The position numbers were made by a program, and so were the translations under genes. From Luteibacter mycovicinus (GTDB lineage Bacteria; Pseudomonadota; Gammaproteobacteria; Xanthomonadales; Rhodanobacteraceae), in the NCBI RefSeq assembly GCF_000745235.1, contig NZ_JQNL01000001.1, forward strand, positions 434,001-498,000: a stretch of DNA of 64,000 nucleotides, read 5' to 3'. Under the pieces are notes generated by a model that did not search any database, was not told the DNA's origin, and saw only the letters and a list, made by a program, of their open reading frames with translations. The first letter of the stretch is position 1, and each line of letters starts with the position of its first letter. Positions 11,864-16,682 of the stretch are shown here, piece after piece.

Positions 11864-13672
<1,809 letters not shown>

Positions 13673-13676
13673 TGAA

Positions 13677-13982
13677 TCAGGCCCCGGGTCCGCCCAGCGG
13701 GATCTTCGAAGGACGCGGCTTACCGTCACCCTCGTCTTCATCGCCGTCTTCGTCTTCGCCTTCTTCTTCCTCGTGATCCGGCTGGATGGGCATCAGGCTC
13801 GAAAAGTAGATGCCTTGCCCCATCACCGCGCGCAGCGCGTCGGCGTCGCGCGCACCCAGGGGTTCGCGAACGTCGTCACCGAGATCTTCTTCATTCATGG
13901 CGAGCGCCAGCGTTTCCGCCGTCGCGTGCCTCAGCGACGCGTCTCCCCCGACGCGCGCCAACCAGCCGACAACACTGCCCAT
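13677..13982 (-). CDS. Candidate split-borosin precursor peptide
   Basis: A 101-residue small protein in three parts. Residues 1-57 form a predicted helical domain (WLARVGGDASLR, then ETLALAMNEEDLG, then DADALRAVMGQG) that resembles, from memory, the borosin-binding domain of split precursors such as Shewanella SonA. Residues 58-69 (IYFSSLMPIQPD) are a short hydrophobic stretch where the methylated core would lie. Residues 70-86 are almost entirely Glu/Asp/Gly, and 87-101 form a basic Pro/Gly-rich tail. It lies 123 bp downstream of the borosin-type methyltransferase on the same strand, with AAGGGA before its ATG. The acidic tail after the putative core is unusual for the family. Function is inferred from neighbourhood and layout; peptide modification is not shown. 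Confidence 0.75.
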   Translation of the reverse strand: MGSVVGWLARVGGDASLRHATAETLALAMNEEDLGDDVREPLGARDADALRAVMGQGIYFSSLMPIQPDHEEEEGEDEDGDEDEGDGKPRPSKIPLGGPGA

Positions 13983-14105
13983 GTGCGATTCCCTTGGGCG
14001 CAGAGGCCTTACCCCTGGCCGATGTCCGGCGATCCTCCCCTCGAGGCGCCTGGACCGGATGATATCCCTATGACAGCACGGGTTGTAGTAGGCCGCGTGG
14101 CCGGG

Positions 14106-14948
14106 TCACGCGGGGTGTGACGCAGGCGGCGCTGGCACGGGAACGGCAGCCTCGTCCGCGGCGAGCGCCTGCAGACGCGCCCGCATCCCGGGTGCGGGAT
14201 CGAGCGCACGTCCCGGGGGAATGGCCAGGGTCTCCGAGGTGCTGATAGCACTTTCGGCCAGGCGCGAAAGCGGCAGGCGCCGGATCGAGGGAGATTCGAT
14301 CGGCAGCGTCGGCGCCTTGTACAGGATCACCTCATGGTCCACGGCGAAATGTTCCGACAGCACGTCGACCAGCACCCGGCGATAGCCGGGCCCGGTGCCG
14401 CGCCGGGCAAGCGACAGGTCGCCGACATGTCCCACCTGCCACAGGAACAACCAGGCCGATGGATCGATCATCCGCCGGTACAACAGGAACTGCGTCGCTT
14501 CGAAGTGCTGGCAGCCGTACGTACCGGGATCGATGCCCAGATCGGCATACATACAGTCCTCCGCGGATATCCCGGGCTCCATACGTGCGTCGAAGCCCTC
14601 GCTGCGTGCGCGCTCGATCGACCGGTGCGGGGCCAGGGCGAAGACGCCCGGGTGACCGTAGAACACCCCGCACACACGCCTGCCTTGTCGCACCTCGGCG
14701 AGGATGACCTCGACCATGTCGGCATAGGTGTCGCTACGGGATCGCCCCTCGGCGTAGTACGACTGCAGGCTGCGCACATCCGCATGCATCTCGCGCAGCC
14801 ACATCTCCACGAGAGGATCGGACACGCCCGCGAAGACGACATCGGCGCGATCGATCTCACTGCGTGCCAGCGGCGTGAGATGCGAGCCAAGCGTCATGCC
14901 CACACCCACGCAGACAAGACTGCCGCGCGACTCTTCCGTCCCTGTCAT
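14106..14948 (-). CDS. Borosin-type peptide backbone alpha-N-methyltransferase (TP-methylase fold)
   Basis: A 280-residue SAM-dependent enzyme of the tetrapyrrole-methylase fold, closest in motif pattern to borosin N-methyltransferases (OphMA, SonM) and not to cobalamin or sirohaem enzymes. Visible hallmarks are GSLVCVGVG at 9-17, the YYAEGRSRSDTY block at 64-75, FYGHPGVFA at 96-104, and GISAEDCMYADLGIDP at 126-141 followed by GCQHFEATQFL. Tyr65, Arg71, Tyr75 and Tyr97 line up with OphMA Tyr66, Arg72, Tyr76 and Tyr98. The cobalt-corrin GxGPGD loop is absent. There is no fused C-terminal peptide as in fungal borosins; a separate precursor gene lies downstream. The start at 14948 gives the same short N-terminal extension as OphMA. 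It is 32 bp downstream of the MFS gene. Confidence 0.88.
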   Translation of the reverse strand: MTGTEESRGSLVCVGVGMTLGSHLTPLARSEIDRADVVFAGVSDPLVEMWLREMHADVRSLQSYYAEGRSRSDTYADMVEVILAEVRQGRRVCGVFYGHPGVFALAPHRSIERARSEGFDARMEPGISAEDCMYADLGIDPGTYGCQHFEATQFLLYRRMIDPSAWLFLWQVGHVGDLSLARRGTGPGYRRVLVDVLSEHFAVDHEVILYKAPTLPIESPSIRRLPLSRLAESAISTSETLAIPPGRALDPAPGMRARLQALAADEAAVPVPAPPASHPA

Positions 14949-14980: not shown

Positions 14981-16594
14981 TTATAGCAGGGCCGCCGCCT
15001 TCTGCAGCGCGATCCACACGCCGATCAGGAACGGGATCCCGACCGCCAGCCACGCGAGTACACCCAGGATGCCGAACGAACCGCGCGCCGCGGATGCCAC
15101 GCTGGCGTCGGTGCTCTGCGTTTCGTGCTGCAACGCCCGCTCGTGCCTCAGTTCGTCCTCGGTCATGTGCAGCTTCGGATCCACCGGGCGAACCAGAAGG
15201 TTGCAGATGAGACCGACCAGCAGCAGCCCGGCCAGGATGTAGAGCGTACGGTCATAGACCAGGTTCTTCGCCACCCCCGCGCTCAGCTGCGCCTCACGGA
15301 TCCCGGCGATCAGCACGGGACCGATGACCCCGGCGACCGACCAGGCGGTGAGCAGGCGCCCATGAATGGCGCCGACCATCTGCGTACCGAAGATATCCGC
15401 CAGGTAGGCGGGCACGGTGGCGAAGCCGCCGCCGTACATCGAGAGGATCAGACAGACGGTAATGACGAACAGCGCGGCCAGCCCCATGTGCCCCAGCGTC
15501 GGCAGCGTGCAGTAAAGGATGATGCCGAGAATGAAAAACACGCAGTAGGTGTTCTTGCGGCCGAGAAAATCCGACGCCGAGGCCCAGGCCAGGCGGCCGA
15601 CGGAGTTGAAAAGGCTGATCAGACCGACGAGACCGGCGGCCGCGGCGGCGATCGCCGTCTTCTGCGCCGTACTCAGTTCGGTGCCGGGGTCGACCCCGAG
15701 CAGCCGACCGCCGAACACGTCCTGCAGCATGGGGCTGGCCATGGAGAGCACGCCGATACCCGCCGTCACGTTCATGCACAGCACGCCCCAGATCAGCCAG
15801 AACTGCGGCGTCTTCCACGCGCGGCTGAGGTGGACGTGGCCATGCGACATCAGGGTGGCCTTCGAGGCGACGGGCTGGTAGCCCTCAGGCTTCCAGCCAC
15901 TCGGTGTGACGCGGAATCCGAACGCACCCAGGGTCATGGCCACGAAATAGATGACACCCATGCAGATCAGCGTCTTCGAGACGCCGGCGATGTCGCCGTC
16001 CTTGAACACGCTCATCAGCTTGACGGCGATCGGCGCACCGATCATCGCGCCGCCGCCGTAGCCCATGATGGCGAAACCGGTGGCCAGACCACGACGATCC
16101 GGAAACCATTTGATCAAGGTGGACACGGGCGTGATGTACCCCAGCCCCTGCCCTACGCCGCCCAGGAACCCGCAACCCAGATAGACCAGCCACAGCTGGT
16201 GCATCGACACGCCGATGCCGCCGATGACCAGACCGCCACCCCAGCAGCACGCGGCGATGAAACCCGCCTTACGCGGACCGGCGTGCTCCAGCCAGCCGCC
16301 CCAGATCGCGGCGGCGAGGCCCAGCATGGCGATGAACGTTTCGAAGATGTGGTTGACCGAGGGCACCGTCCAGTTACAGGTCGTGGTGGTCAGCTGATCG
16401 AGGAAGCCCTGGGTCGCGCACGCGCCCGCGTCGGCACCCGGCACCAGCGTGGTCATCGGCAGCCAGAAGACGGAGAAGCCGTAGGCCATGCCGATGCACA
16501 GATGGATGGCGAGCGCAGCGGGCGGAACCAGCCAGCGATTGAACCTCGGTCCCGCGATCGTGCGCTCACGCGCAAGCAAGCCACCGGTTGCCAT
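14981..16594 (-). CDS. OFA-family MFS transporter
   Basis: A 537-residue polytopic transporter with about 12 membrane segments. It resembles the oxalate/formate antiporter (OFA) family and E. coli YhjX: AIHLCIGMAYGFSVFWLP in helix 1, the GVGQGLGYITPVSTLIKWFPDRRG loop, and the second-half GRLAWASASDFLGRKN motif. A large insert (about 65-95) and a cytosolic C-terminal tail ending in an extra hydrophobic helix are visible. Substrates in this family are small organic acids; the substrate here is unknown. The start at 16594 has AGGGG upstream. It is the first gene of a minus-strand run leading into the borosin-like pair, 32 bp away, so it may be co-transcribed with them, but OFA proteins are not known as peptide exporters. 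Confidence 0.88.
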   Translation of the reverse strand: MATGGLLARERTIAGPRFNRWLVPPAALAIHLCIGMAYGFSVFWLPMTTLVPGADAGACATQGFLDQLTTTTCNWTVPSVNHIFETFIAMLGLAAAIWGGWLEHAGPRKAGFIAACCWGGGLVIGGIGVSMHQLWLVYLGCGFLGGVGQGLGYITPVSTLIKWFPDRRGLATGFAIMGYGGGAMIGAPIAVKLMSVFKDGDIAGVSKTLICMGVIYFVAMTLGAFGFRVTPSGWKPEGYQPVASKATLMSHGHVHLSRAWKTPQFWLIWGVLCMNVTAGIGVLSMASPMLQDVFGGRLLGVDPGTELSTAQKTAIAAAAAGLVGLISLFNSVGRLAWASASDFLGRKNTYCVFFILGIILYCTLPTLGHMGLAALFVITVCLILSMYGGGFATVPAYLADIFGTQMVGAIHGRLLTAWSVAGVIGPVLIAGIREAQLSAGVAKNLVYDRTLYILAGLLLVGLICNLLVRPVDPKLHMTEDELRHERALQHETQSTDASVASAARGSFGILGVLAWLAVGIPFLIGVWIALQKAAALL

Positions 16595-16682
16595 ATGTGT
16601 CCCCTGCCGTTGAAGTGGTACTGCCCCGGGTCGCATCTTAAGCGGGTTTCGGGTTGCCGCCACCCTACGTTGGTCTTAGGGC

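Follow-up and report, generated by a model that had tools for sequence, protein, structure and literature searches.

The window analysed here is a 64,000-nucleotide stretch of Luteibacter mycovicinus DNA, and the system in question is a split borosin, whose defining trait is that methyltransferase and precursor come from separate genes (PMC8429565, in the sections drawn on here). The initial annotation, made from the letters alone, had proposed such a locus from a methyltransferase gene and a small gene, and both lie on the minus strand where it placed them, as separate genes. It overlooked a third gene: the unit extends past position 13677, and the gene at 11864-13672 is part of the borosin locus. 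The locus is a three-gene unit of borosin methyltransferase, precursor and membrane sensor, the last with a tetratricopeptide repeat (TPR) and a GGDEF domain. Transcription on the minus strand runs from the methyltransferase (14948-14106) through the precursor (13982-13677) to the sensor (13672-11864), and a gap of only 4 bases separates the precursor stop codon (TGA) from the sensor ATG.

14106-14948, minus strand: methyltransferase gene (280 amino acids)
13677-13982, minus strand: precursor gene (101 amino acids)
11864-13672, minus strand: sensor gene (602 amino acids)

In a search of solved structures, SonM of Shewanella oneidensis ranks first for the 280-residue enzyme (E 2.3e-69), followed by the fused fungal borosins of the OphMA type (E 1e-47 to 1e-52). 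The enzyme is identical to SonM at 112 of 251 aligned residues (45%). The motifs quoted in the initial annotation are present, and the four residues it named, Tyr65, Arg71, Tyr75 and Tyr97, align with Tyr58, Arg67, Tyr71 and Tyr93 of SonM, all of which are kept. These SonM residues were found important in the type IV SonM/SonA system (PMC8429565, same sections). Since the alignment stops at residue 258 of 280, no clasp or core is fused to the enzyme, in line with the lack of a fused core noted initially; OphMA and dbOphMA, in contrast, are fused. We also weighed an ordinary tetrapyrrole methylase that happens to stand beside an unrelated small gene. The enzyme does carry the Pfam tetrapyrrole methylase domain (PF00590, E 2.4e-18), but a single tetrapyrrole methylase occurs among the 26 sequences listed (2e0k, E 8.8e-6), more than 40 orders of magnitude behind SonM and OphMA, and neither cobalamin nor sirohaem methylases give the best match. 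With the active-site residues kept and a SonA-like precursor next door, we rejected this candidate as exceedingly improbable, and on these matches we assign the enzyme as a borosin alpha-N-methyltransferase of the SonM kind. The initial annotation had called backbone N-methylation rare in bacteria, which does not hold for this group: 64 of 101 sampled relatives carry such a methyltransferase. At some related loci an acetyltransferase-like gene lies beside the methyltransferase (L102:4916-5440, tested with Pfam; similar genes by look at L079, L082, L103-L105, L169 and L170), possibly another tailoring step.

The 101-residue open reading frame is a real gene, because at 79 of 93 loci with a homologous methyltransferase a family profile detects its homologues within 1.5 kb downstream of that enzyme's gene, and because the overall ratio of nonsynonymous to synonymous substitution rates (dN/dS) is 0.20-0.40 across six ortholog pairs. 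The small gene is thus far from absent in related genomes, an outcome that would have spoken against the proposed locus. The same profile matches SonA chains (E 4e-5), and five predicted helices bear out the SonA-like helical binding domain that had been proposed. From this similarity, the protein is best described as a split-borosin precursor of the SonA kind, with the following parts.

13821-13982, minus strand: borosin-binding domain, residues 1-54, five predicted helices, SonA-like
13782-13820, minus strand: presumed core around IYFSSLMPIQ, residues 55-67, pattern shared by orthologues
13680-13781, minus strand: acidic tail, residues 68-101, 39% Asp plus Glu

By analogy with SonA, residues 55-67 would be the methylated stretch. 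A core pattern, aromatic-F-x-x-Q/L-M-P, is common to most of 17 aligned orthologues, 13 of which come from loci without a methyltransferase. The core sequence is not that of SonA, and SonA, in the sections of PMC8429565 drawn on, ends with its core, whereas here a 34-residue acidic tail follows. In the typing of borosins from 0 to XI, the excerpted description of ‘class 3’, a separate methyltransferase with binding domain and core in one protein, matches this locus (PMC11395268).

The sensor comprises a signal peptide, a TPR domain (residues ~53-326), a membrane helix (~396-412) and a GGDEF domain whose GGEEF motif (residues 504-508) is intact. Pfam recognizes GGDEF (E 8.8e-37) and TPR_12, and the AlphaFold2 model has a pLDDT of 88. 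All 22 sensor homologues examined have a hydrophobic segment at the N-terminus and a second one besides, and among the same 22 two cysteines of the TPR part (191 and 221, counted along the full-length protein) are invariant. By its domains and its GG(D/E)EF motif, the protein is a predicted membrane diguanylate cyclase with putative cyclase activity. The genome matches the sensor in 21 places, only three of which align over both TPR and GGDEF, and these three are the neighbours of its two methyltransferases.

We then asked how widely methyltransferase and sensor go together. The sample comprised 101 genomes of relatives with 93 methyltransferases of this kind, leaving out three weak rows (E 1e-4); sensor counts are lower bounds, as at most 13 candidates per genome were scored, and three matches whose alignment starts no earlier than residue 271, 304 or 371 were omitted. 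A full-length sensor (E 1e-38 or better) lies within 8 kb of 85 of the 93 methyltransferases, and all 100 such sensors are on the methyltransferase strand. Adding locus L112, with two weaker sensors nearby, and L111:5288-7867, where a TPR-GGDEF sensor and a borosin methyltransferase are fused in one 859-residue frame, brings the total to 87/93. Across genomes, 62 hold both, two only the methyltransferase, two only the sensor and 35 neither (Fisher p 2.5e-22, kinship not corrected). The sensor is also present at 25 of 26 named loci (Luteibacter, Dyella, Povalibacter, Arsukibacterium, Alteromonas and others); at the remaining one the contig ends at the methyltransferase. In the order reached via the Alteromonas locus, 94 of 394 genomes hold a SonM relative, and 20 picked loci all pair the precursor with a TPR sensor, which carries GGDEF in 17 and a histidine kinase in three. 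Two of the 20 encode methyltransferases 98% and 99% identical to SonM and are presumably Shewanella; there the sensor directly follows the precursor, its frame starting with the very next base once the sonA stop ends.

Gene order varies around this association. It is precursor, sensor, methyltransferase at L106 and L109, and sensor, methyltransferase, precursor, sensor at L108, and at L104 one methyltransferase is shared by two precursor-sensor pairs. Of 136 sensors, 36 have no methyltransferase within 8 kb, and for 20 of these a precursor lies at most 900 bases upstream. Two of the 36 are at contig ends (G007:C385 and G088:C39, the latter among the 20), and a methyltransferase could lie just beyond. 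Every genome with one of the 20 lone pairs holds a methyltransferase elsewhere, and in G095 and G100, which have a sensor and no methyltransferase, we saw no precursor. Precursors at lone loci are under purifying selection (overall dN/dS 0.20-0.30 in five of six pairs), which, together with the kept core pattern, points to precursor and sensor as the unit that selection keeps. Judged from these genomes, the pairing of precursor with sensor is conserved even where the methyltransferase lies elsewhere, and the methyltransferase would be able to act on lone pairs from a distance.

The output half of the sensor can change. A profile of the TPR part only, run on 685 open reading frames of at least 300 residues from wide loci, gave six matches without a GGDEF motif: one interrupted sensor and five histidine kinases encoded in the clusters (E 1e-35 to 3e-8), in all of which Pfam confirms TPR, HisKA and HATPase domains. 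A sensing part that is kept while the output changes is as expected of a receptor.

The precursor tail also tracks the sensor. The initial annotation had described a strongly acidic stretch followed by a basic Pro/Gly end and thought the architecture new. The acidic stretch is real, the basic end is weak (Lys plus Arg 3-20% of the tail in 17 orthologues), and the architecture is not peculiar to this locus, as related loci yielded 97 precursors of which 70 have an acidic tail. Of the 133 unique precursors of the order that were scored (one cut by a locus end was dropped), the tail is present in 90 of 100 directly before a sensor vs 1 of the remaining 33 (Fisher p 7e-21, without correction for kinship). 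Acidic tails thus mark sensor-adjacent precursors. The ten sensor-adjacent exceptions are six SonA-like precursors, two Pro-rich ones (L098), and those of L079 and L192, whose acidic tail was misjudged, or nearly so, by the scoring window. Unusual tails were seen elsewhere, Lys-rich at L123:7417-7845, Pro-rich at L098 and made of repeated acidic units at L041. At L094, L095, L100 and L101, tail-less precursors whose cores vary stand in long tandem arrays, with no sensor near the last two arrays. Some core elements of tandem tail-less precursors recur in tailed ones (for example PQATQS in L095, PQISQS in L022).

Because the sensor gene belongs to the unit, the likely function shifts from a natural product to a signal with its sensor, and the persistence of the sensor beside the precursor in many bacteria suggests that the peptide is the signal. 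The reading we favour, at somewhat better than an even chance, is that precursor and methyltransferase make a backbone-N-methylated peptide whose core serves the TPR sensor as ligand and switches GGDEF output, that is, cyclic di-GMP (c-di-GMP). The binding domain of the precursor would dock on the methyltransferase, which would N-methylate the backbone of the core (in the IYFSSLMP region). Either released or still attached to part of the precursor, the core would then reach the periplasm and bind the TPR domain there. Binding would switch the GGDEF domain on the cytoplasmic side and so change c-di-GMP; in some relatives a histidine kinase would be driven instead by a TPR domain of this kind.

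Several observations weigh against this ligand model. The conserved unit has no transporter or peptidase and the precursor shows no signal peptide, which leaves export unexplained; a search of the genome with Pfam PF00026, for a Shewasin-like peptidase, gave no match, but the control gave none either, which makes this result uninformative. Gene neighbourhood is no proof of binding, and the resemblance of the TPR part to known peptide receptors is that of a common fold at 10-12% identity. For 16 of the 36 lone sensors no precursor was detectable. Six of the 93 methyltransferases have no sensor found nearby: L093, L097, L100 and L101 show none in 12-13 kb of clean context, L110 has only a GGDEF match without TPR, and the one in G090 sits at a contig end. 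The link becomes patchier beyond the order, where two of seven sampled class-level loci have a TPR sensor (L143, L145) and five have none. A basic TPR surface that would receive the acidic tail was likewise unsupported: the net charge of the TPR part is -14 for the sensor in the window and mostly negative in its homologues (group means -5.7 to -14.9), and we dropped the idea that the tail binds there.

The absence of a transporter, a peptidase or any further tailoring gene from the conserved unit also speaks against another explanation. There the peptide would be an ordinary bioactive natural product whose production is just monitored or controlled by the sensor, for autoinduction, immunity or stress, much as with lantibiotic sensors. 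Clusters for ribosomally synthesized and post-translationally modified peptides often hold regulators, the tail-less tandem precursors with varied cores (at least 12 per locus, L095) resemble a product library, and review sources on Shewanella, in the excerpts drawn on, class such peptides as natural products. We nevertheless consider this explanation rather unlikely, given that the precursor-sensor pair is also kept where no methyltransferase gene lies nearby, and that this pair, not enzyme plus precursor, is the conserved core.

The missing signal peptide would fit a third explanation, that the methylated precursor is never exported and acts as an intracellular small-protein partner of the sensor or the methyltransferase, as SiaC is a small protein partner of the cyclase SiaD. 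Translation of the precursor appears coupled to that of the sensor across the 4-nucleotide gap, the acidic tail goes with sensor adjacency, and the sensor-methyltransferase fusion places the methyltransferase in the cytoplasm with the GGDEF domain. The obvious partner, however, is the TPR domain, which the hydrophobic segments of all 22 homologues predict to lie outside the cytoplasm, and we regard an intracellular role as improbable.

The ligand model may extend well beyond this genome, although we put this only tentatively, at a little under an even chance. Many proteobacterial split borosins, SonM/SonA included, would then be backbone-N-methylated signals and not antibiotics, with the precursor as ligand of the adjoining TPR receptor, one methyltransferase serving several pairs in trans, c-di-GMP or a phosphorelay as output, and the acidic tail marking receptor-coupled precursors. 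A comparison can be drawn with RRNPP-type peptide receptors such as Rap/Phr, which also come as pairs of peptide gene and receptor gene and whose TPR superhelix may have a counterpart of similar shape in the sensor. Rap proteins are cytoplasmic, whereas the TPR domain here is coupled to GGDEF and predicted to be periplasmic, and we do not assign the sensor to that family.

The first description of split borosins dates from 2021, their typing is later, and none had been tied to a final product in the sections of the 2021 paper drawn on (PMC8429565). The words GGDEF, cyclase and tetratricopeptide are absent from its main text. Full-text literature searched for borosins with GGDEF, diguanylate cyclase, c-di-GMP or quorum sensing returned one relevant mention, a figure legend that, as excerpted, names a GGDEF-sequence-containing domain (PMC11395268), so the GGDEF neighbour has probably already been drawn in a published figure. 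The same literature, outside which the papers defining types IV-X fall, held no text on the pairing, lone pairs, kinase variants or the tail rule. Going by its title, a 2023 paper reports a product. A conserved sensor that accompanies the precursor, also after sonA, and changes its output domain gives these peptides a direct role that can be tested, in which a methylated peptide is the input and c-di-GMP or a phosphorelay the output. If true, this would bring a new chemistry to peptide signalling in bacteria.

The genome has a second borosin locus (L146, G000:C1:2483916-2488762). Its methyltransferase is 56-57% identical, its precursor has a tail of repetitive Asp/Lys sequence, and two TPR-GGDEF genes stand there in tandem. 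At L164 the sensor gene is broken into two open reading frames of 413 and 154 residues. In the window, an MFS transporter gene (14981-16663) adjoins the methyltransferase gene. L147, L149 and L152 have an MFS transporter gene upstream of the precursor and sensor genes. No methyltransferase was matched at these three loci, which looks as though its gene had been lost or gained there.
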